From Betaproteobacteria bacterium GR16-43 (GTDB lineage: Bacteria > Pseudomonadota > Gammaproteobacteria > Burkholderiales > Usitatibacteraceae), in contig CP019169.1 of the NCBI GenBank assembly GCA_001953215.1, forward strand, positions 868,001-932,000: DNA of 64,000 nt. The letters run 5' to 3'. The position numbers and the translations under genes were made by a program. Below the pieces are notes generated by a model, which made no database searches, was not told the DNA's origin, and saw only the letters and a program-made list of their open reading frames with translations. This document shows, piece by piece, positions 4,854 to 14,306 of the stretch. How positions within the stretch are numbered: position 1 is the stretch's first letter; each line of letters starts with the position of its first letter.

Positions 4854-6308
4854 ATGAACGAGCAAATCCTCATCAACATCACCCCGCAGGAGACGCGGGT
4901 CGCCCTCACCGAACAGGGTTCGGTGCAGGAGCTCCACGTCGAGCGCGATTCGAGCCGCGGCCTGGTGGGCAACATCTACCTGGGCCGCGTGTGCCGCGTG
5001 CTGCCGGGGATGCAATCGGCCTTCGTCGAGATCGGCCTCGCCCGCGCGGCGTTCCTGCACGTGGCCGACATCTGGACCGCGCGCAACGGCGGCGGCGACG
5101 TCCGGCCGATCGAGCGCATCCTCTCCGAAGGCCAGACACTCCTCGTGCAAGTGGTGAAGGACCCGATCGGTTCCAAGGGCGCGCGGCTTTCCACGCAGGT
5201 CTCGATCGCCGGGCGTCTGCTGGTCTACCTGCCGCAGGACCCGCACATCGGCATCTCGCAGCGGATCGAGGACGAAGTCGAGCGGGAGCACCTGCGCGAG
5301 AAGGTGCACGCGCTGATCCCGCAGGGCGAATCCGGCGGCTTCATCGTGCGCACCGTGGCCGAGACGGCGAGCGACGCCGAGCTGGGCTCCGACATCGAAT
5401 ACCTCATCACGCTGTGGAAGCAGATCCAGCAGTCGGCGACCACGGCGGCACCGCAGGCGCTGCTCTACCAGGACCTCTCGCTCGCCGCGCGCGTGCTGCG
5501 CGACCTGGTCACGAGCACGACCGAGCGGATCATCGTCGACTCGCGCGAGGTCCACCAGAAGCTGGTGGAGTTCGCGACGAAGTACACGCCCAAGGTGCTG
5601 CCGGTGCTGGAGCACTACCAGGGCGAGCGGCCGCTCTTCGACCTCTTCGCGGTCGAGGACGAGATCGAGCGGGCGCTTTCGCGGCGCGTGGACCTGAAGA
5701 GCGGCGGCTACGTGATCCTCGACCAGACCGAGGCGCTCACCACCGTGGACGTGAATACGGGCGGGTTCGTCTCGGGCCGCTCGTTCGACGACACGATCTT
5801 CAAGACCAACCTCGAGGCCACGCAGGCGATCGCGCGGCAACTGCGGTTGCGGAACCTCGGCGGCATCATCATCGTCGACTTCATCGACATGGATTCGCAG
5901 GAGCATCGCGACGCGGTGCTCTCGGAATTCAGGAAGGCGCTCTCCCGCGACCGCACGCGCATCACGCTGAACGGCTTCACGCAGCTCGGGCTGGTGGAGA
6001 TGACGCGCAAGCGCACGCGCGAATCGCTCGCGCACCTACTCTGCGAGGCGTGTCCCGTGTGCAAGGGGCGAGGAGAACTGAAGACCGCGCAGACGATCTG
6101 CTACGAGATCCTGCGCGAGATCCTGAGGGCCGACCGGCAGTTCAGCGCGAAGGAATACCGCATCCTCGCGTCACAGCAAGTGATCGACCTCTTCCTCGAC
6201 GAGGAATCACAGGGCCTCACGTCGCTCGGCGACTTCATCGCCAAGCCGATCTCCATGCAGGTGGAAACGACGTACATGCAGGAGAACTACGACGTGATCC
6301 TGGTGTAG
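4854..6308 (+). CDS. rng: Ribonuclease G
   Basis: Endoribonuclease of the RNase E/G family that matures the 5' end of 16S rRNA and degrades mRNA. MNEQILINITPQETRVAL, the S1-like domain at ~35-125 and the catalytic region LTTVDVNTGGFVSG with GGIIIVDFIDM are present. The Zn-link CEACPVCKGRG follows. 484 aa matches RNase G rather than RNase E, which has a long C-terminal scaffold. The start is the ATG preceded by GGGAGG. Confidence 0.95.
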   Translation: MNEQILINITPQETRVALTEQGSVQELHVERDSSRGLVGNIYLGRVCRVLPGMQSAFVEIGLARAAFLHVADIWTARNGGGDVRPIERILSEGQTLLVQVVKDPIGSKGARLSTQVSIAGRLLVYLPQDPHIGISQRIEDEVEREHLREKVHALIPQGESGGFIVRTVAETASDAELGSDIEYLITLWKQIQQSATTAAPQALLYQDLSLAARVLRDLVTSTTERIIVDSREVHQKLVEFATKYTPKVLPVLEHYQGERPLFDLFAVEDEIERALSRRVDLKSGGYVILDQTEALTTVDVNTGGFVSGRSFDDTIFKTNLEATQAIARQLRLRNLGGIIIVDFIDMDSQEHRDAVLSEFRKALSRDRTRITLNGFTQLGLVEMTRKRTRESLAHLLCEACPVCKGRGELKTAQTICYEILREILRADRQFSAKEYRILASQQVIDLFLDEESQGLTSLGDFIAKPISMQVETTYMQENYDVILV

Positions 6309-6401
6309 AAATAATTGGGGTCAGACTCCCATTAAGTTAATTCTCGCGATGCGGTGCGCCGCATCCGAATTAACTTAATGGGAGTCTGACCCCAATTATT
6401 T
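6309..6401. repeat. Palindromic element B (GGGGTCAG family, subtype 1)
   Basis: Two perfect 34-nt inverted arms, 6309-6342 and 6368-6401, contain AATTGGGGTCAGACTCCC. The 25-nt loop holds its own stem, GATGCG/CGCATC. The element sits between the convergent ends of rng and the dynamin-like gene, so it could end transcription from both sides. The element at 31.9 kb has nearly the same arms but a different inner stem. Confidence 0.9.
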
Positions 6402-6403
6402 CG

Positions 6404-8860
6404 CTAGTTCTTCAGGTTCTGCAGCAGCCGCTTGGCTTCCTGGAGGCGCTGGATGGAGTTGTCCAGGCGCTGCGTCGTCGACGGATCCTTCTCCGTCTCC
6501 GTGCCCGGGGCGGGCATTTGCTGCGTCACGTCGGGGCGATAGTTCGGGTCGAGCGCCGGGATCTGCACCGTCCTGTCGCCGGCCGCGGACGGAAGGCGCT
6601 GCGTGCGCTGCTGGTCCGCCGGGGGATCCATGGCCGCGAGGCGCTGCGTGCTCATGGCTTCGAACGGAGCTTCGACGCGCTGCGTGTCCTCTGCGCCGGG
6701 AGCTCCGGGAAGCGCGGCGATGTCCGAGAGGAAATCGTCCGAGACCATCGGCGCGGCGGGCACGGGCGCCGGCTTGGCGGCCGGGGCGGGCTTCGGGGCG
6801 GCGGGCATGGCCGAAGGAGCCAGCGGCGCGGGCGAGCCCGGCCCCGCGGCCTGCATCATCTCGGACGGTGTGATCGTCGTTTCCGGGCGCGGCATGGGCG
6901 TGCCGACCATGTCGGGGATCGGCGTGCGCGATTCGCTCGCGGACACGCGGTCGATCAGGCCCTGGATCATGTCGCGCTGCTTCTTGAGATCCGCCTCGAT
7001 GGTTTTCAACGCCGCCATCTGCTCGTTGATCGAGGAGGTCTTCTCGTTGATCTTGGCGAGGTTGTCGAGGCGCGACTGCAGTTGCTGCTTGTGGTCCTTC
7101 ATCTGCGTCTCGAGCGGCATCACCACCGCCTGCACCCAGCGCTCGGCCTGCGTCTTGGCGTCCATGAAGGTGGAGCGCGCCTGCTTCACGACCGTGTTGT
7201 AGAACTTCTTGATGAACGGGCCGGTCGGGTGGGCGATGTTGATCGGATCGCGCACGAACGCGTCGGCCTCGTGCACCAGCAGTTGCAACTTGGTGCGCTG
7301 GGGATCGAGGTCGAGGGACGGCAGGTTCATTTTCTGGAAGGCGAACTTCTGGATGAACGTGTTGTAGACGCCCTGCATCAGCTTCTTGATGTCCTCGCTC
7401 GCGACGTAGACGGCCTCGAAGTCCGCGCTCATGAGGCGCGACATCTCGCGCATCGAGCGCTGCAGGCCCACCGTCGTCCACGAGGATTCCATCGCCGCCT
7501 CGCTCTTCGCCATGATCTGGTCGAGGTGGGCTGGATTCAGCCGGTCCATCAGCGCCGAGCGCTTGGCGTTGAACTGGGCGTTGTTGATCTTGTATTCGGC
7601 GAGGGCCGTGTTGTACTGGTTCTTCTCCAGCGTGATCTTCTGCCAGAGCTTGGTCACCACGTCGCGGCTCTTGCCCTGCAGGCCCTGCAGTTCGGCCACG
7701 CCCGCCTGGTTGGCTTCCTGCTTCTTCGCCACCAGCGCGCGCGAGGAGGCCATCATGCCGCCGATCTCGCTCACCACGGCCTTGCAGAGGATCGCGCGCT
7801 TCATCGGCACGATCTCGTCGGCGAGGAATTTCTCGAGGGGCTGGATGCCGCTGCGCTTGATCAGCGGCTCGTCCTCGCGGATCTTGGCGAGCAGGGCCTT
7901 CTGGGCCGACAGCGCGAAGATGCGTTCGCGCGGGAGGTTCAGGTGCGTGCCGGTGGTATCCACCATGCGCTGGATGGCGCGGTCGATCTCCGGCAGCGTC
8001 TTCAGCTCGTCCCACATGAGGTCGATCTTGTTCAGCACCGCGATCTTCTGCGGCAGGCCCGGGCGCACGTAGCGGTCCCAGATCTCGAGGTCGCTCTTGG
8101 TGACGCCCGTGTCGATCGACAGCAGGAACAGCACCGCATGCGCGCTCGGGATGGTGCTCACCGTGAGCTCGGGCTCCATGCCCAGGGCGTTCAGGCCCGG
8201 CGTATCGAGGATGGAGAGCCCGTTGGTGAGCAGCGGGTGCGGGAAATTGATCATGGCGTAGCGCCATGCGGGCACTTCGACCAGCTCTTCCTCGCCGGGG
8301 AGCTCGCCGTTCTCGTTCAGCATCGGCGAGAGGCCCAGCATGCGGGCTTCGAGCGCGTAGACCTTCTTGGTTTCCACCAGGGCCGTGAGCGCCTTGCGCA
8401 TGTCGACCGTGGAATTGATGTTCAACCGGACCTTGCTCCACTCCACCGGCATGTTCTTCAGCTGGGAGATGGACTCGTCGCGGTAGCGCGTCTCGACCGA
8501 CAGGAGCTTCAGGTACGGCTCCTCGTTCGGGTCGTGGAAGATTTCGGTGGGGCACATCGTGGTGCGGCCCACGTCGGAGGGCAGCAGCCGCTCCTTGAAG
8601 CTCGAAAAGAAGAGCGCGTTGATGAGCTCGGACTTGCCGCGCGAGTACTCCGCGAGGAAAGCGAGCATCAGCCGGCCCTTGTTCAGGTTCTCGAGCAGGT
8701 CGTAGAAGCGGATGGACTGCTGGACGTCCAGGTGCCCGTTGCTCTCCAGCCAGTCGTGGTACTCGTGGACGGACTTGGTGAGCTCATCGCGCCACTGGTT
8801 GTAGCGGGCGATTTCGGACTCGAAGCGGGTCGAGTTGGCGGGCGCGGGAGCGGCGGACAT
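6404..8860 (-). CDS. Dynamin-like GTPase family protein
   Basis: 818-aa large GTPase. The P-loop is AEYSRGKSELINALF, G3 is ILDTPGLNALG and G4 is LNKIDLMWDE. A long helical region (~370-640) is followed by a low-complexity Ala/Pro segment and a C-terminal coiled coil ending EAKRLLQNLKN. Bacterial relatives act in membrane remodelling or fission, but the substrate is unknown. It is a single-gene unit with no partner dynamin nearby. Confidence 0.85.
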   Translation of the reverse strand: MSAAPAPANSTRFESEIARYNQWRDELTKSVHEYHDWLESNGHLDVQQSIRFYDLLENLNKGRLMLAFLAEYSRGKSELINALFFSSFKERLLPSDVGRTTMCPTEIFHDPNEEPYLKLLSVETRYRDESISQLKNMPVEWSKVRLNINSTVDMRKALTALVETKKVYALEARMLGLSPMLNENGELPGEEELVEVPAWRYAMINFPHPLLTNGLSILDTPGLNALGMEPELTVSTIPSAHAVLFLLSIDTGVTKSDLEIWDRYVRPGLPQKIAVLNKIDLMWDELKTLPEIDRAIQRMVDTTGTHLNLPRERIFALSAQKALLAKIREDEPLIKRSGIQPLEKFLADEIVPMKRAILCKAVVSEIGGMMASSRALVAKKQEANQAGVAELQGLQGKSRDVVTKLWQKITLEKNQYNTALAEYKINNAQFNAKRSALMDRLNPAHLDQIMAKSEAAMESSWTTVGLQRSMREMSRLMSADFEAVYVASEDIKKLMQGVYNTFIQKFAFQKMNLPSLDLDPQRTKLQLLVHEADAFVRDPINIAHPTGPFIKKFYNTVVKQARSTFMDAKTQAERWVQAVVMPLETQMKDHKQQLQSRLDNLAKINEKTSSINEQMAALKTIEADLKKQRDMIQGLIDRVSASESRTPIPDMVGTPMPRPETTITPSEMMQAAGPGSPAPLAPSAMPAAPKPAPAAKPAPVPAAPMVSDDFLSDIAALPGAPGAEDTQRVEAPFEAMSTQRLAAMDPPADQQRTQRLPSAAGDRTVQIPALDPNYRPDVTQQMPAPGTETEKDPSTTQRLDNSIQRLQEAKRLLQNLKN

Positions 8861-8910
8861 TCGGCCACTATAGCCGAATTGCCGAAATGAATCCGTGAGT
8901 TACCGCACAG

Positions 8911-8943
8911 AAAAAAAAGGCGTTATTGGCTTTGCCGTACCCA
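8911..8943. repeat. Left target duplication and terminal inverted repeat of the transposon
   Basis: 8911-8918 is an A8 tract. 8919-8943 is a 25-nt terminal repeat beginning GGCGTTATTGGCTTTGCCG. The same 25 nt occurs in perfect inverted orientation at 12771-12795, again flanked on its outer side by A8. A direct 8-bp duplication outside a perfect inverted repeat is the hallmark of transposition. Confidence 0.9.
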
Positions 8944-8947
8944 GCAT

Positions 8948-9571
8948 TTACGCAGGAGGGGCATACGGGGCTGGCCGAGCAATGGCCGCTCCATCCGCGT
9001 CGAGCAACGTTTCAGGTAGCAAGGAGCGTTCTAGGTGAACATCCTTGATCTTGGCGAGCTTGTCGGCAATTTCGCTTAGCTCCTTGCTGTGACGGCGACC
9101 GGGAGGGGCAATTACCTTGATCGTCTTCTTGGGGAAGTCGGCCTTGATCATTCGAACCGACGGCGCAATGTCGGAGTCACCGCAGATGAGGAACGCTTCG
9201 TCGTACTCGTCGCGGTACGCGCCCCGCACCATGCTCAGAGCGAGATTCACGTCGCTCTCCTTTTCCTCATGCGCGGTCCATCCGGCCCCGCACTTGTTGC
9301 AACCCCTCTCCTTCTCTTTGAAATTCCCGAGAAGCGGAGTCACCCCAGAAACTGACAGCGCCTTGACGTAGGCTTGATGACGTTTGTGAGCGCTTTCAAG
9401 CCACGTCGCATATGCGGAGAAGTAGTAGACCCCAACGAGGTCATGCACTTTGGGATCAAGGAAACAGAGAATGACCTTGCGTAGATCGACCCACTTGAGA
9501 TGGGGTCGCTTCAGGTCTTGTATCGCGTGATACAAGTTGAAGCCGTCAATGAATGCGGCAACTCGTATCAC
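8948..9571 (-). CDS. NYN-domain (DUF88/LabA-like) predicted ribonuclease
   Basis: 207-aa PIN-like NYN protein. The acidic active site is visible: AFIDGFNLYH (D9, N12), EKESDVNLALSM (D107) and LICGDSDIAPSVR (D132, D134). A small insert with CNKCGAGW (C91, C94) may bind zinc. NYN domains are usually metal-dependent RNases, but this target is unknown. It starts with GTG. It lies 119 nt downstream of the 318-aa predicted DNA-binding gene on the same strand, so the two probably form one passenger operon inside the transposon. Confidence 0.85.
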   Translation of the reverse strand: MIRVAAFIDGFNLYHAIQDLKRPHLKWVDLRKVILCFLDPKVHDLVGVYYFSAYATWLESAHKRHQAYVKALSVSGVTPLLGNFKEKERGCNKCGAGWTAHEEKESDVNLALSMVRGAYRDEYDEAFLICGDSDIAPSVRMIKADFPKKTIKVIAPPGRRHSKELSEIADKLAKIKDVHLERSLLPETLLDADGAAIARPAPYAPPA

Positions 9572-9690
9572 GGGGAAAGGGGTGCCGCGAACCGTAGCCC
9601 GCGGCGGGCGCCTAGGTGTTGGCCCAGGCGGGATGACTCACTTATCATCATATGCCCAAACCCCTTGAATTTCAAGCCCATGGGCGAGAA

Positions 9691-10647
9691 CTAAAGGCCC
9701 GACGCCCGCTTGATCTTGCGGAGTTGAAGTTCGATCCAGTCTTGAAATTCTTCGAAGCTCTCCTTGCTCATTCCCTCCGGCCACTGAAGGATTACTGAGC
9801 CCCCATCCGCGAAGTTGTAAACGTCCTGTTTGAATCCACGCGTTGGCTGAACGGGCTGCTGAATCGCAGCGGCAGGGGTTGGCGCAACTGGCACCGCTGG
9901 TTTCGCTTCCATGACCGTGACCTCTCCAATTGGGACACCGGACCCCTCGCCTTCAACAAAGGCGAATTTTCCGTCGTCACTAAACCCCACGACACGGCGC
10001 GGCTGCTGAAATTGAACCACCCCTCCGGATTCCCACTGAATCAGCGAACCAATCCGGACGTTGGGCGGATTCGCCTCAACGGCCACTTCACTACCAGCCG
10101 CGCTCTCCGTAGAAGGCAATATATCAGAACTGACAAGTTGGGCATATCTGATGGATTCCCGAAAACTCTTAATACAAGCCTCGGCGCCGCTTGGATTAAA
10201 GCCTTTTACAGTTACCAGATAGTGGGCAATCGTTTGATTTGATGGAAGATTTTTTGGATCAAACTGACGAAGCAAGTCGGCGAAGACCTTGGGCTTTTGA
10301 ACCGTTTCCTTGAGCTTTTGCACCCGAAAGTCGGCATTAGGCGCCATCATGAGGTCAACGCCCAAGGGCGTAAGCTTTACGAGGCGACTCGCATTAGCGC
10401 CCCTATCAGTCATCAATCCGAAGTTCAGCATCGCAGCCACCGTGAGACGAGCGCCGCTGCTCTTAGGCCCGTAGCCCCAGTGTTGGAATGCGGAGGTCAG
10501 CGGGGCCTCGTACTTAGATTCCCCGTCCCAAAACTGCTTGGCGCGATTCACCGCCGTCTCCAGGTTGATCGACGGATAGGAAGCGCTTCGGCCACCGCCA
10601 CGCGCTTCGACCTCCACCTTTTCTACCGCCGTCTCCTTGGCCGCCAT
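9691..10647 (-). CDS. Uncharacterised protein with predicted N-terminal winged-helix region
   Basis: 318 aa from ATG 10647, preceded by AAGGGG. The frame stays open another 2 kb upstream, but that part is antisense to the transposase. Residues ~20-110 look like a helix-rich winged-helix domain (SAFQHWGYGPKSSGARLTVAAM, then RLVKLTPLGVDLM). The middle (~200-270) has a beta-rich VRIGSLIQWESGGVVQF segment. The C-terminus (ILQWPEGMSKESFEEFQDWI) is a short helical motif. No named family is recognised with certainty. A candidate promoter lies at 10678-10706. Confidence 0.75.
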   Translation of the reverse strand: MAAKETAVEKVEVEARGGGRSASYPSINLETAVNRAKQFWDGESKYEAPLTSAFQHWGYGPKSSGARLTVAAMLNFGLMTDRGANASRLVKLTPLGVDLMMAPNADFRVQKLKETVQKPKVFADLLRQFDPKNLPSNQTIAHYLVTVKGFNPSGAEACIKSFRESIRYAQLVSSDILPSTESAAGSEVAVEANPPNVRIGSLIQWESGGVVQFQQPRRVVGFSDDGKFAFVEGEGSGVPIGEVTVMEAKPAVPVAPTPAAAIQQPVQPTRGFKQDVYNFADGGSVILQWPEGMSKESFEEFQDWIELQLRKIKRASGL

Positions 10648-10677
10648 CACAGACCCCTTTGAGTAGGTACGGCGCCC

Positions 10678-10706
10678 AAGGTACACCCAAGGAAGAACTG
10701 AGTCAA
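10678..10706 (-). promoter_or_regulatory. Candidate sigma70 promoter for the 318-aa gene
   Basis: On the minus strand TTGACT (10706-10701) is followed after 17 nt by TACCTT (10683-10678). This lies about 30 nt upstream of the ATG at 10647, leaving room for a short leader with the AAGGGG ribosome site. It is a sequence match only. Confidence 0.45.
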
Positions 10707-10750
10707 GGCTACAAGCCTCGGGACGTTTTCCGCATATGTCTAAAAATGTC

Positions 10751-10779
10751 TTGACAAGGGTTTCCGGCGGAGGGAAACT
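10751..10779 (+). promoter_or_regulatory. Candidate promoter for the transposase
   Basis: A perfect -35 hexamer, TTGACA (10751-10756), is followed after 17 nt by a weak -10, GAAACT (10774-10779). AGGA at 10794-10797 then precedes the GTG start at 10807. It lies back-to-back with the minus-strand candidate at 10678-10706. Confidence 0.4.
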
Positions 10780-10806
10780 GGCTGCGTCCATACAGGAACC
10801 AGCGCC

Positions 10807-11745
10807 GTGACCTCTATCCTCTCCGCCCCGTACTTCCATGACGAACAGGCTGCCTACGACTTCATCGAAGGGCGCATCTGGGCCAACGGTCGCGTCTGCC
10901 CGAAGTGCGGAGTGATTGGCGAAAGCGGCAAGCTCAACGGCAAGTCCACGCGCATCGGCGTGTATAAGTGCTACGCCTGCCGTAAGCCCTTCACGGTCAA
11001 AGTCGGCACCGTGTTTGAGTCCAGCCACATCCCCATGCGCCTCTGGCTGCAAGCCATCTTCCTGATCGCATCGAGCAAGAAGGGGATCAGCACGAACCAG
11101 TTGCAGCGCACCCTTGGCATCACGATCAAGGCCGCGTGGTTCCTCACCCATCGCATCCGTGAGGCAATGAAGGATGGCAGCGTGGACATGTTCGGCGTGG
11201 ATGGCGGAGCGGTCGAGGTAGATGAAACCTTTATCGGGCGCGACTTCCGCAAGAAGCCCAAGGGAGAGAAGCGCGGGCGCGGCTTCTACCATAAGAGCAA
11301 AGTTGTTTCCCTCGTTGATCGCTCTACGGGTCGCGCCCGTAGCATCGTGGTCGATAGACTCCGCGCGAAGACCCTCTATCCGATCCTCAACGCGAACATT
11401 GCGCGCGAAGCCCGGCTCATGACGGACGAGGCGAGCTACTACCAGACCATCGGCAAGATGTTTGCTCAACACGGCTGGACGCTTCACGGCCAGGGAAACT
11501 ATGTGAATCGGAAAGACAACACGATTCACACCAATACCGTTGAAGGCTTCTTCTCCATCTTCAAGCGGGGCATGAAAGGCATCTACCAGCACTGCAACCA
11601 CAACCATCTGCATCGCTACGTCACGGAGTTCGATTTCCGCTATAACAACCGTGCTGCGAACGGCGTGGATGACGTGCAACGCGCCGAGATTTTGCTTCGT
11701 GGCGTGGTTGGCAAGCGACTCACCTACAGGACAGTTGCTTGCTGA
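10807..11745 (+). CDS. IS1595-family transposase (ISXO2-like)
   Basis: 312-aa transposase. The N-terminal zinc ribbon (CPKCGVIG ... YKCYACRKPF) is followed by a helix-turn-helix region (KKGISTNQLQRTLGITIKAAW). The RNase H-like core has D139 (EVDETFIG), D207 (TDEASYY) and N243/E246 then K252 (NTVEGFFSIFK), matching the family's DD(N/E)K pattern. GTG start with AGGA upstream. No frameshift or stop interrupts it, so it appears intact and possibly active. Confidence 0.93.
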   Translation: MTSILSAPYFHDEQAAYDFIEGRIWANGRVCPKCGVIGESGKLNGKSTRIGVYKCYACRKPFTVKVGTVFESSHIPMRLWLQAIFLIASSKKGISTNQLQRTLGITIKAAWFLTHRIREAMKDGSVDMFGVDGGAVEVDETFIGRDFRKKPKGEKRGRGFYHKSKVVSLVDRSTGRARSIVVDRLRAKTLYPILNANIAREARLMTDEASYYQTIGKMFAQHGWTLHGQGNYVNRKDNTIHTNTVEGFFSIFKRGMKGIYQHCNHNHLHRYVTEFDFRYNNRAANGVDDVQRAEILLRGVVGKRLTYRTVAC

Positions 11746-11777
11746 GTTCAAACACCGCAAGCGCAAGGTGACTGCCG

Positions 11778-11951
11778 ATGCCAGCAAAACCCACGAAGCC
11801 CCCCGCGAAGAAAAAGCGAAGCACCCGGACGAAAGACCCGGCGCAGTCGGCTCGCTTTTTGGAGACGGCGAAGAAGCTTGAGGCCGACGAGAGCGGAGAA
11901 GCCTTCTCCCGTGTCCTTGACGTTGTTGCGCCGAAGCCCAAGGGAAAATAG
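11778..11951 (+). CDS. Small basic protein downstream of the transposase
   Basis: 57-aa frame starting 32 nt after the transposase stop. The N-terminus is Lys/Pro/Ala-rich (MPAKPTKPPAKKKRSTRTK). The second half, DPAQSARFLETAKKLEADES, looks like an amphipathic helix. The composition and the position directly behind an ISXO2-type transposase suggest an accessory transposon protein. I recall similar small proteins beside such transposases but cannot verify this. No function is assigned. Confidence 0.6.
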   Translation: MPAKPTKPPAKKKRSTRTKDPAQSARFLETAKKLEADESGEAFSRVLDVVAPKPKGK

Positions 11952-11978
11952 GAGAGCGCCATGAGGACATAGCGCAGA

Positions 11979-12067
11979 GGCTCGCGGTTACAACGCCACC
12001 GGACGCGAGCCCAAATGGAAAACGGCCCAAACAGTTCACACCTTGCAGGGAGAGGACTGTTTGGGCC
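11979..12067. other. Two tandem perfect hairpins in the transposon
   Basis: Hairpin 1 pairs GGCTCGCG (11979-11986) with CGCGAGCC (12004-12011). Hairpin 2 pairs GGCCCAAACAGT (12024-12035) with ACTGTTTGGGCC (12056-12067), a perfect 12-bp stem with a 20-nt loop. No U-tract follows either, so they are not standard intrinsic terminators. They fill the 163-nt gap before the GIY-YIG gene and could form a structured leader RNA or a protein-binding site. Confidence 0.6.
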
Positions 12068-12114
12068 GGGCGTGGCGAGTAGTAACCCCCACTCACAACG
12101 TAAGGAATCCTATC

Positions 12115-12402
12115 ATGCCGTTTCCGAAACAGAATGCCCGGGCCTTTACGCGGGCGAACATCGAAGGAATCAGCCCCGGGCAGAACGGTTGCTATGGGCT
12201 TTTCGTCAACCAGGGCGGTTGGGTTTATGTCGGCAAGGGCGACATTCGCACACGGTTGATGGAGCACCTGAGAGGCGACAATCCCGATATCACTCGCGCG
12301 GGTCCGACCCACTACGTTGACGTCATTACGCCGGATATGGACGCCGAGGAAAAACGCTTGATTGTCGAGCTTCAGCCGTCCTGCAACAAGAAGGTGGGCT
12401 AG
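12115..12402 (+). CDS. Small GIY-YIG domain protein
   Basis: 95 aa, essentially a bare GIY-YIG nuclease domain. GCY (25-27) and YVG (38-40) form the two signature strands. R45/R47 in KGDIRTRLMEHL, E78/E79 in DAEEKRLIVE and N91 in LQPSCNKK match the catalytic Arg, Glu and Asn. There is no attached DNA-binding domain, so targeting would need a partner. ATG 12115 is preceded by GTAAGGAATCC. Its end overlaps by 4 nt the end of the convergent 96-aa gene. Confidence 0.75.
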   Translation: MPFPKQNARAFTRANIEGISPGQNGCYGLFVNQGGWVYVGKGDIRTRLMEHLRGDNPDITRAGPTHYVDVITPDMDAEEKRLIVELQPSCNKKVG

Positions 12403-12689
12403 ACGTTGCCACCTGCGCCGTCGTACTTGCCTGTTGTCCGGTCGAAATAGAAGTCGCGTCCATTCACCGAAATGCAGGTGTAGAACACGCCGACGCGAAT
12501 CTGTACCTCTTGGCCGGTGAGGGAGTCTTTGATGGTCGTGTCCCTCACCGCGCCAGGAGTCCCAAGGCGGTTCAAGAGCGTCCCAAAGGCTTCGCGGGCG
12601 CGACCCTTCCAGATATCCCAACGGGACGCACCGGTAGACGCCGGGCGGCGCACCGGAAACAGCAATAGTTTGGCCATAGGTCTGCCCAT
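12399..12689 (-). CDS. Hypothetical protein, 96 aa
   Basis: Small protein with a basic N-terminus and a C-terminal beta-rich stretch, VFYTCISVNGRDFYFDRTTGKYDGAGGNV. ATG 12677 (MAKLLLF) is an alternative start. Codon use and the orderly C-terminal motif suggest a real gene, the last one before the right terminal repeat. I do not recognise a family. Confidence 0.55.
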   Translation of the reverse strand: MGRPMAKLLLFPVRRPASTGASRWDIWKGRAREAFGTLLNRLGTPGAVRDTTIKDSLTGQEVQIRVGVFYTCISVNGRDFYFDRTTGKYDGAGGNV

Positions 12690-12770
12690 TCATTCAGAGT
12701 AGACCGGGGTCTGTAGACCCAATGCCCGGAACAGGCGGATTCGAGGGTAGGACTTCATCACCTGCCCCCT

Positions 12771-12803
12771 TGGGTACGGCAAAGCCAATAACGCCAAAAA
12801 AAA
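12771..12803. repeat. Right terminal inverted repeat and target duplication of the transposon
   Basis: 12771-12795 is the exact reverse complement of 8919-8943. 12796-12803 is A8, identical to 8911-8918. Beyond 25 nt the two ends diverge. The A8 is also the T-tract of the adjoining minus-strand terminator. Confidence 0.9.
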
Positions 12804-12825
12804 GGCCGGGCACAAGGGCCCGGCC
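12796..12825 (-). terminator. Intrinsic terminator of the small membrane-protein gene
   Basis: Read on the minus strand, an 8-bp perfect GC stem (GGCCGGGC/GCCCGGCC, 12804-12825, loop 6 nt) is followed by T8 (12803-12796). It lies 43 nt past the stop at 12868. The transposon inserted exactly in the T-tract, and the target duplication restored it. Confidence 0.85.
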
Positions 12826-12867
12826 ATCGGGATGCTGCGAGCGTTGGAGACCGAGGAGCGGCGGTTC

Positions 12868-13089
12868 CTACGCAGCGCGGCGGAAATGCTCGTCGTTCGC
12901 GGGCTCGTCGCGGGGCACGTTGTGGCGCTCGCGGGGAGCCTGGCTCGGCGTCCAGTCGGTGCTGGGGAACATCAGGGTGCCGCGCTCGCCTTCCAGCAGC
13001 AGGAAGAGGTTCATCGCGAACAGCACGACCAGCGGGGTGGCTACGGCGAACAGCAGGGCGAATTCGTTCACAAGATTCAGGGTGTTCAT
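12868..13089 (-). CDS. Small single-pass membrane protein (paralogue of 32442-32696)
   Basis: 73 aa from ATG 13089, with GGAG five bases upstream. One hydrophobic segment (FALLFAVATPLVVLFAMNLFLLL) is followed by the motif GERGTLMFP and a polar tail. A second gene at 32442-32696 has the same plan (LLFAITAPVAAVAALHVWLAL, then GERGSLLLP). The function is unknown. A strong terminator follows at 12796-12825. Confidence 0.65.
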   Translation of the reverse strand: MNTLNLVNEFALLFAVATPLVVLFAMNLFLLLEGERGTLMFPSTDWTPSQAPRERHNVPRDEPANDEHFRRAA

Positions 13090-13152
13090 GGTGGTCTCCA
13101 GGGCTCGTTTTCGGGTTGTCTGCGCCTTGTTCCTGCAGCGCATGACCGCACT

Positions 13153-13326
13153 CTAGGAGCGCGCCCGGGGCCCTGCCAGCGGGATGCGACGAAACGGAGA
13201 AACCGGGGGGCGAAATGCGGCCGGCGCGGCGGTTTCGGCTTCCCGGGCGATGGCCAGGAAGCGTTCCCGCCAGGCGGAGCGGCGGGCGAAGGCGGTCGAA
13301 ACGAGGGTCTGGAGGGGGCTCTTCAT
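13153..13326 (-). CDS. Possible small protein, 57 aa
   Basis: Short frame just upstream of the small membrane-protein gene and on the same strand: MKSPLQTLVSTAFARRSAWR, then ERFLAIAREAETAAPAAFRP and a Pro/Arg-rich end. It has no clear ribosome site and no family match, so it could be chance in GC-rich DNA. The remaining bases up to the repeat at 13372 hold nothing else recognisable. Confidence 0.3.
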   Translation of the reverse strand: MKSPLQTLVSTAFARRSAWRERFLAIAREAETAAPAAFRPPVSPFRRIPLAGPRARS

Positions 13327-13371
13327 GGACAGCCACGATAGCGGCCGTCCATGACAAATTCGTGTGAATAG

Positions 13372-13482
13372 TAATCGGGGTCAGGGTAGAAATAACTTCA
13401 TATTTCTACCCTGACCCCGATTTCAGAGATATTTCTACCCTGACCCCGATTTCAGAGATATTTCTACCCTGACCCCGATTAT
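13372..13482. repeat. Palindromic element C (GGGGTCAG family, subtype 2, tandemly expanded)
   Basis: One left arm (AATCGGGGTCAGGGTAGAAA, from 13373) faces three copies of the complementary right arm (13401-13423, 13429-13452, 13458-13481). The right arms form two tandem 29-nt direct repeats at 13421-13449 and 13450-13478. It sits just downstream of the iclR stop. Element F at 63.7 kb has the same arm. Confidence 0.85.
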
Positions 13483-13484
13483 TC

Positions 13485-14306
13485 CTAGAAGACGCCCCCG
13501 GTGGCGACCAGCACCTGGTCCCGGAGGGCGAGGAGGCGGGGCCCGACGTCCTGGATGATCCGCTGGCGGGTCATGTCGAAGATCGGCCCGCTGCAGTTGA
13601 GGGCCAGGACTCGGTGGCCTTCGCGGGAAACCATCGGCACGCCCACGGCCCAGACGTCCTTCACCCATTCGCCGACCGACAGGCAGAAGCCGAAGCGCTC
13701 GTAGTCGCGCACCGCCTTCTCGATCCCCGCTTCGATGGCCTCCCACTGCGGGCGCGGGGTCATCTTGCGGTAGGCGATGAGCCTTTCCTCGCGCGCCGGC
13801 TGCGGCAGGGCCGCCAGGTAGGCCCGGCCCATCGCCGTCCACCCGTGCGGCACGCGCGAGCCCACGTCGAGGCTGATGTGGAACATCTGGCCCGAGCCCT
13901 GGCAGATCTCGAGGAAGACCATGTGCTCGCCGCTGGGATCCGGTGCCCCGAGCGACACCGAAGCGTGCACGTCGTCCGCCAGTTGCTGCATGAGGGGACG
14001 CGCCACGTTGCGCACGTCGAGCGTGCCGAGATAGGAGTGGCTGAACGACAGCACGCCGACCGAGAGCGCGTAGCGCCCGGTCTCCGGGGAATAGGTGAGG
14101 TAGCCGAGTTGCGTGAGCGTGAACGTGAGGCGGCTCACGGTCGGCTTGGCGAGGCGCGTGCGCTTCGCGATCTCGGCATTGCCCAGCTCGCGATCCTTGC
14201 GCGAGAAACAGCGCAGGATGTCCAGCCCGCGCGCGAGCGCGGTGACGAAGCGCCGGTCGAGCTGCGGCGAGCGCGTGCGCAGGACCGGGACGTGGGCGCG
14301 CTTCAC
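13485..14306 (-). CDS. IclR-family transcriptional regulator
   Basis: 273 aa from GTG 14306, overlapping the oxidoreductase stop as GTGA. The winged helix-turn-helix lies at ~20-80 (LDILRCFSRKDRELGNAEIA, then TRLAKPTVSRLTFTLTQLGY). The IclR effector domain follows, with VGSRVPHGWTAMGRAYLAAL and SVGEWVKDVWAVGVPM. It is the last gene of the six-gene minus-strand acyl-CoA operon and probably regulates it. A palindrome at 18780-18794 upstream of the operon is a candidate site. Confidence 0.9.
   Translation of the reverse strand: MKRAHVPVLRTRSPQLDRRFVTALARGLDILRCFSRKDRELGNAEIAKRTRLAKPTVSRLTFTLTQLGYLTYSPETGRYALSVGVLSFSHSYLGTLDVRNVARPLMQQLADDVHASVSLGAPDPSGEHMVFLEICQGSGQMFHISLDVGSRVPHGWTAMGRAYLAALPQPAREERLIAYRKMTPRPQWEAIEAGIEKAVRDYERFGFCLSVGEWVKDVWAVGVPMVSREGHRVLALNCSGPIFDMTRQRIIQDVGPRLLALRDQVLVATGGVF

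Follow-up and report, generated by a model that had tools for sequence, protein, structure and literature searches.

A cargo-carrying IS1595-family transposon in Betaproteobacteria bacterium GR16-43 and its relatives

Positions 8919 to 12795 of a 64,000-nucleotide stretch of the Betaproteobacteria bacterium GR16-43 genome (contig CP019169.1), the whole of which we call the window, hold a transposase gene and five other frames between two inverted copies of a 25-bp sequence, and the question that this locus raises is whether it is a complete mobile element and, if so, what it carries and to what kind of element it belongs. It is a real IS1595-family transposon, of a kind already known. We further think it quite probable that the element is complete, probably autonomous and of the transporter insertion sequence (IS) type, and that it belongs to a modular clade of cargo-bearing elements, with passengers, a small protein and a left arm of the nature proposed below.

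Ends, transposase and landing site

The left terminal inverted repeat (8919..8943, plus strand) and the right one (12771..12795, minus strand) are complementary at 25 of 25 nucleotides and form the longest inverted pair within 8500-13300; a simple estimate puts the chance expectation of perfect inverted 25-mers in 64 kb at about 2e-6. Outside them lie two runs of eight adenines (A8; 8911..8918 and 12796..12803), the only A or T runs of seven or more in the window, which we read as copies of the target duplication in view of the siblings with 8-bp duplications; A8 alone is weak evidence, because poly-A is of low complexity. These bounds give an element of 3877 bp with a G+C content of 57.3%, compared to 67.1% in the remaining window. 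The right A8 is also, on the minus strand, the T-tract of the rho-independent terminator that the insertion hit, whose stem-loop (12804..12825, minus strand) has a stem GGCCGGGC/GCCCGGCC of eight pairs, all G-C, followed by T8. The terminator retains its full T8 because the 8-bp duplication copies its T-tract, and landing there may thus spare the host.

The transposase (10807..11745, plus strand; 312 residues, GTG start) matches the Pfam families DDE_Tnp_IS1595 (PF12762, E 3.1e-34) and Zn_ribbon_IS1595 (PF12760, E 3e-10), both over the cut-off, and NCBIfam NF033547 at 185 bits (cut-off 75), and its residues D139, D207, N243, E246 and K253 together with C31/C34/C55/C58 are invariant in a 21-row alignment. 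With these matches and the invariant catalytic and zinc residues it looks intact, as the initial annotation had said in calling it ISXO2-like. Transposase type and models, zinc ribbon, catalytic residues, terminal inverted repeats and 8-bp duplication are those of the ordinary, ISXO2-like members of the family, and the NYN, 318-residue and GIY-YIG-like genes within the ends are unrelated to transposition, as expected of a transporter IS.

The empty site is found in the congener G002 (L034), where the joined flanks align without an insert (850 of 1048 columns identical) and one A-rich tract and the same terminator stem are kept. A second congener, G004 (L035), spans the junction at 73% identity with a diverged A-rich tract, and the alignments of two further congeners (L036, L037) stop short of it. 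The DNA of the element, that of the left arm included, has no match in the five congeners G001-G005. The footprint of ends, duplication and empty site suggests that the transposase would recognise both 25-bp ends and insert with an 8-bp staggered cut, and we infer that the transposition was carried out by the window transposase itself.

The same ends recur elsewhere. Scanning with an alignment of six transposases turned up 80 genome loci, and a second scan 80 loci on viral contigs, which may be prophages or misassigned host DNA. Requiring an 8-bp duplication (one mismatch allowed) and a 25-bp inverted end, and after six genome loci whose ends proved spurious on inspection by eye (L056, L062, L070, L075, L082 and L106) had been removed, 54 of the genome loci and 38 of the viral-contig loci could be delimited. 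A stricter rule (inverted repeat agreeing in at least 19 of 25 positions, exact duplication) delimits 52 of the 80 genome loci and none of the 80 in a control with the downstream half of the flanks reversed. When the window element, L023, L024 and L025 are added, the total comes to 96 elements, which are 1884-5055 bp long with a median of 2583.5. The initial annotation had claimed an IS1595-family transposon with passengers, flanked by the 8-bp duplication typical of that family, and had suggested looking for an empty site and for matching ends in other copies; ends, transposase models, empty site and siblings all concur with it, down to the perfect repeat, the flanking A8, the length of the element and the count of five further frames (NYN, 318 residues, 57 residues, GIY-YIG-like and 96 residues). 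One of the 96, in the window's own genome (G000:C1:2292129-2294012, or L024 3130-5013), is a distant IS1595-type element of 1884 bp with the duplication GCCTCTGA, whose cargo is a 172-residue protein with a RHALVHG stretch, HEPN-like by eye; it lacks the small protein.

The landing site of the window element is also not an isolated case. We scored sites for a strong stem beside a T-tract (score of at least 20, the cut-off fixed before the controls), which in the genome set left 57 sites after exclusion of L058 for its short flank. Terminator-like sites make up 11 of these 57, compared to 4 of 2240 random positions, 17 of 896 A/T-rich 8-mers and 23 of 905 A+T-matched intergenic positions (Fisher 1.2e-6 for the last). 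The viral set repeats this with 3 of 38 against 7 of 818 controls (0.008). The duplications are 81% A+T in the genome set and 60% in the viral set. Terminators are therefore a bias of insertion, not a rule, and the bias could come from target choice or equally from selection against harmful insertions.

Backbone, cargo exchange and the window's passengers

In nine of nine related pairs of elements, chosen by us, DNA similarity is confined to the left end with the transposase (77-88%), the small gene described below and the right end. For instance, the window element and L019 (G016) are 85% identical over 557 bp to just past a hairpin at 12023-12068 and again over the final 38 bp including the right end, with unlike cargo between the two blocks. 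In L021 the same stretch is 74% identical to that of the window and is followed by an unrelated GIY-YIG-like gene, the two GIY-YIG-like proteins giving nothing in blastp at E 1. A tree quickly made from 57 transposases, 43 of whose rows are labelled with one of 10 cargo classes (some by eye), needs 28 changes of class compared to a minimum of 9. As far as sequence goes, these comparisons show the clade to be a modular platform, in which short cargo modules are swapped in slots between the blocks of a backbone, these blocks being the left end, the transposase, the small protein and the right end.

The cargo was collected as 104 proteins, leaving aside small open reading frames, frames under 75 residues, L115 (which has a nested IS3) and the window's NYN, 318-residue and 96-residue proteins. 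Pfam finds DUF3800 in nine, PIN in eight, SocA_Panacea in four, and MethyltransfD12, GmrSD_N and HNH in two each, together with 17 families of one or two members, including Cas2-like, PIN_10 and N6_N4 methylase. Among the matches listed for 104 flanking control proteins no family has more than two members, which is the ground for counting DUF3800, PIN and SocA_Panacea there at no more than one each; these three make 21 in the cargo against at most 3 in the control (one-sided Fisher 6e-5). Among the families listed by PADLOC are PD-Lambda-5 A (best E 3.3e-178) and PD-Lambda-5 B (best E 2.4e-116), with two members each, and PDC-M04A, with three. PD-Lambda-5 has been tested as a system by experiment, and we assign its pairs, from the gene clusters, to L064 and L110. 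By family membership, the cargo is rich in nuclease, toxin and defence-like proteins of the sorts that bacteria use against phages. Short Cas2/VapD-like proteins lie near the right end in L067 (9178-9441; Pfam CRISPR_Cas2, E 8.6e-6) and, by eye, in L063, L074, L099 and L204.

The window element carries three recognisable passengers and one further frame. The first passenger (8948..9571, minus strand) is an NYN-domain protein of 207 residues (Pfam NYN, E 1.5e-12), which matches the PADLOC HEC-09 model over residues 1-202 (E 4.5e-54) and is called as HEC-09, here borne by a transposon. As reported in one study, HEC-09 is linked by correlation with phage susceptibility in Pseudomonas (PMC12447246). 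A relative (E 5.3e-36) is found in L204, which has inverted ends agreeing at 23 of 25 positions (5933-9396) and the small gene and is without a duplication, and further relatives occur on 391 plasmid records. When the whole element is searched against plasmids, 38 records are found, and the best 20 of the 38 match the transposase part alone.

The second passenger (9691..10647, minus strand; 318 residues) has no family in Pfam, NCBIfam or PADLOC. Its AlphaFold2 model has a predicted local distance difference test score (pLDDT) of 61 overall and is better at residues 22-171, where it forms a helix-helix-helix-strand-strand arrangement plus helices, and the best hits in a fold search are MarR-type regulators, weak at E 0.01 with none at 0.001. 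From this partial model the N-terminal part is probably a winged helix. A relative in L196 (E 5.7e-22, 27% identity) lies in an element with ends agreeing at 20 of 25 positions, the duplication AAAAAAAT and a terminator-like site. The third passenger (12115..12402, plus strand) starts at an ATG at 12115 (95 residues) or at a TTG at 12043 (119 residues). Its Pfam match to GIY-YIG (E 0.064) reaches 14.0 bits against a cut-off of 22.6, and its relative in L100 (E 9e-7; ends agreeing at 22 of 25 positions) has a clearer motif, so we call it only GIY-YIG-like. Searches of viral contigs with this protein and the 318-residue protein returned no relatives. The further frame, a putative gene of 96 residues (12399..12689, minus strand), belongs to none of the families in Pfam, NCBIfam and PADLOC, and the element loci contain no relative.

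The initial annotation had named the passengers NYN, winged-helix and GIY-YIG, and considered the set not to be one described before. The first name is firm, the second stands on the partial model and the third falls below the Pfam cut-off when taken alone; since each recognisable passenger has a relative in a sibling element, the set is not a private one, and the evidence supports the view that the window's passengers would be drawn from a repertoire common to the clade. The NYN and 318-residue proteins as one system is a candidate that we dropped as unsupported, and they need not form one, because the genes occur separately in other genomes.

Judging by their family membership, the passengers across the clade most likely earn the element its keep as modules for phage defence or addiction. 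The strongest rival account, which we regard as a serious candidate with the odds somewhat against it, narrows this to addiction modules for the most part, with nuclease toxins and their partners killing or slowing cells that have lost the element and no anti-phage role. PIN and its constant partner, SocA-Panacea and its partner and the BrnT-like pairs (all paired by eye) do resemble toxin-antitoxin modules; PD-Lambda-5 pairs, D12 methyltransferases and GmrSD-type proteins, however, are of the defence and not the addiction type, and the window's NYN and 318-residue genes do not co-occur as a pair elsewhere.

The left arm and the small protein

The distance from left end to transposase is 47-89 bp in 55 elements and 1888 bp in the window, and a left arm of more than 400 bp is seen in only two of 95 elements, the window's and L212 (1386 bp). 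What may be a remnant of the ancestral left end lies at 10738..10762 (plus strand), within which a TTGACA at 10751-10756 stands 56 bp before the transposase start. The TTGAC of the left end is found within 90 bp upstream of the transposase start in 63 of 79 canonical elements, mostly 45-56 bp away, and the chance of a TTGACA in this 9-position slot of host sequence is 0.00015. The window element is atypical in its 1.9-kb left arm, which holds the NYN and 318-residue genes and possibly extends beyond a relic of its original left end, a new left end having most likely been re-formed further out. The route may have been a fusion with an inverted sibling minus its transposase, which is a guess. 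In both two-armed elements the ends agree at 25 of 25 positions, as in 9 of the 96 elements. L212 (4615-7268), the second of the two, has the duplication CCCTGTAT and a TTGAC 52 bp before its transposase.

The left arm could instead be host DNA that was trapped once, through a chance sequence resembling a right end, and would then not be mobile cargo. There is a single copy of the element in its own genome, such an arm is nearly unique in the clade, and NYN and 318-residue genes occur outside elements of this kind too. The perfect agreement of the window's ends nevertheless speaks against trapping, as do the relatives of both genes carried in L204 and L196 and the absence of left-arm DNA from the flanking congeners, and we think it unlikely.

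The frame behind the transposase (11778..11951, plus strand) encodes a protein of 57 residues. Clustering places its family, of about 45-75 residues with a single call of 150, in 48 of the 58 genome-set elements, and a hidden Markov model profile finds it in 53 of the 58, in 53 of 53 cases on the transposase strand, with the gene directly behind the transposase in 19 of 53 and behind cargo in 34. This count is not an independent one, because the genome set itself supplied the profile; the viral set and a phylum sample are independent of it. In the former, 21 of the 38 viral-contig elements have the small protein, 20 of them on the transposase strand, and the profile has no match outside the delimited elements in the genome or viral-contig loci. 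In the latter, 398 phylum genomes give 19 matches in 18 genomes, 14 of the 19 at most 6 kb from a transposase match and, at E below 1e-8, 13 of 14 near one (both hand counts). The sole exception at that threshold (L183 3221-4425, in G633) is a decayed element with a transposase fragment, a DUF3800-like gene and the small gene, in which no ends are recognisable. Elements with transposases more distant from that of the window (e.g. L024, L025) are without it. The window protein has no match in Pfam or NCBIfam and no solved relative, 70 family members giving only stray matches, and its AlphaFold2 model consists of two helices with loose ends (pLDDT 73, predicted template modelling score 0.33). 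These patterns support the 57-residue frame as a probable conserved part of the backbone and not cargo, and since it stays with the transposase through changes of cargo, it most likely assists or regulates transposition.

Alternatively the small protein may be cargo itself, such as an antitoxin or a regulator of the toxin genes. Its gene often stands directly after or between cargo genes, as the 34 of 53 attest, and it is short and charged as many antitoxins are, with two predicted helices. Yet one and the same family accompanies DUF3800, PIN, Panacea, GmrSD, PD-Lambda-5 and other cargo, its gene in the genome set always keeps to the transposase strand and adjoins the transposase in over a third of cases, and by DNA similarity it goes with the transposase block when the cargo is unrelated, all of which makes this quite improbable. 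The weakest alternative, that the repeats and A8 pairs arose by chance and no element exists, has practically no chance of being right and is refuted by the perfect 25-bp repeat, the transposase between its copies, the empty site, the lower G+C content and the matching sibling ends.

Weight of the evidence and relation to known elements

Several observations weigh against reading the locus as a complete member of a modular clade with the passengers, small protein and left arm proposed. Undelimited relatives make up 26 of the 80 genome loci and 42 of the 80 viral-contig loci. As many as 17 of the 38 viral-contig elements, and 5 of the 58 in the genome set, do without the small protein, which is therefore not indispensable across the wider group. 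The window element has only one full copy in its own genome, and in a sample of 300 genomes of the order the NYN gene is found in 9 and the 318-residue gene in 4, the two together in its own genome only. HEC-09 is a defence candidate whose protective function is putative, the majority of cargo proteins have no Pfam family, and the PADLOC control proteins match 53 families, mostly helicase-like, so that PADLOC counts do not make an enrichment test. The relic left end scores poorly over 25 bp by weight matrix, reaching at the expected spacing only the top 1% of 2000 host 25-mers with higher scores elsewhere in the left arm; this matrix case was dropped, the position of the TTGACA being the better argument.

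A bolder account, which we put forward tentatively and lean somewhat against, would make the clade a dedicated carrier of exchangeable single immunity or toxin modules on a fixed backbone, which needs its undescribed small protein to transpose, to control transposition or to exchange cargo, and which prefers the T-tracts of terminators as safe places to land; the window element would be its rarer two-armed form, arisen by an outward shift of the left end.

IS copies with passenger genes are described, together with the IS1595 family, as transporter ISs (tIS; PMC3129680, citing Siguier et al. 2009), and the window element is likewise an IS that carries additional genes without a part in transposition. 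What the clade adds to the tIS as presented there is a small conserved protein together with slots for cargo, a recurrence of defence-like cargo and a bias towards terminators. Ordinary IS1595 members are given in PMC11092175 as about 1000 bp long with one open reading frame, in Xanthomonas and Ralstonia; in contrast to that description, all 96 delimited elements are 1884-5055 bp and none is IS-sized. A similar picture emerges for Tn7-like transposons, which carry defence and toxin-antitoxin genes, PIN included (Benler et al. 2021, PMC8649781), and are thus also transposons with such cargo. Compared to these, as they are characterised in that paper, the clade's elements have 2-5 kb, a single small DDE transposase and one or two modules. 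The text of PMC8649781 contains no occurrence of IS1595. In the limited part of the literature that was searched, we found no account of this clade's small protein, of the range of its cargo or of its bias towards terminators, and these regular features seem to be undescribed.

If the reading of a modular clade is right, the vehicles of defence and toxin genes include, beside Tn7-like elements, prophages and large islands, compact units of 2-5 kb that have a single transposase, defined ends and slots in which cargo can be exchanged. The bounds of such units are easily found, and their unknown cargo therefore offers a short list of candidates for defence genes. Their conserved small protein in turn poses the question of what a simple DDE transposase needs when it carries cargo.

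Between the small gene and the GIY-YIG-like gene lies a non-coding stretch (11952..12114, plus strand) that two relatives from the same family have conserved and that contains the strong hairpin at 12023-12068; in the window and these two relatives it separates the small gene from three different cargo genes. The hairpin has 46 bases and 15 stacked pairs (z-score of -2.4 for 12000-12110), with at least one paired position changed on both sides in L021, and may act as a regulatory RNA for the cargo gene. We also considered it as a general docking site for cargo and rejected this, as it was found only in G000, G016 and G022, three of 28 family genomes. It is therefore a local feature, and in the order sample of 300 genomes it occurs in its own genome only. 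Rfam gives eight matches to E 1 on 8000-13500, none at the gathering score.

Two repeat-related observations were made in passing. The right end of the sister element in L019 is abutted by another IS (1159-2403), with a 385-residue transposase that is IS30-like by eye and 38-bp inverted ends. Downstream of the window element, at 13400-13480 and at 13373-13393 on the minus strand, are repeats that look like the REP (repetitive extragenic palindrome) type, in tandem 29-bp units with ATTTCTACCCTGACCCCGATT; the genome has 57 forward and 59 reverse copies of this 21-mer, often in close inverted pairs, compared to none for the same sequence read backwards.

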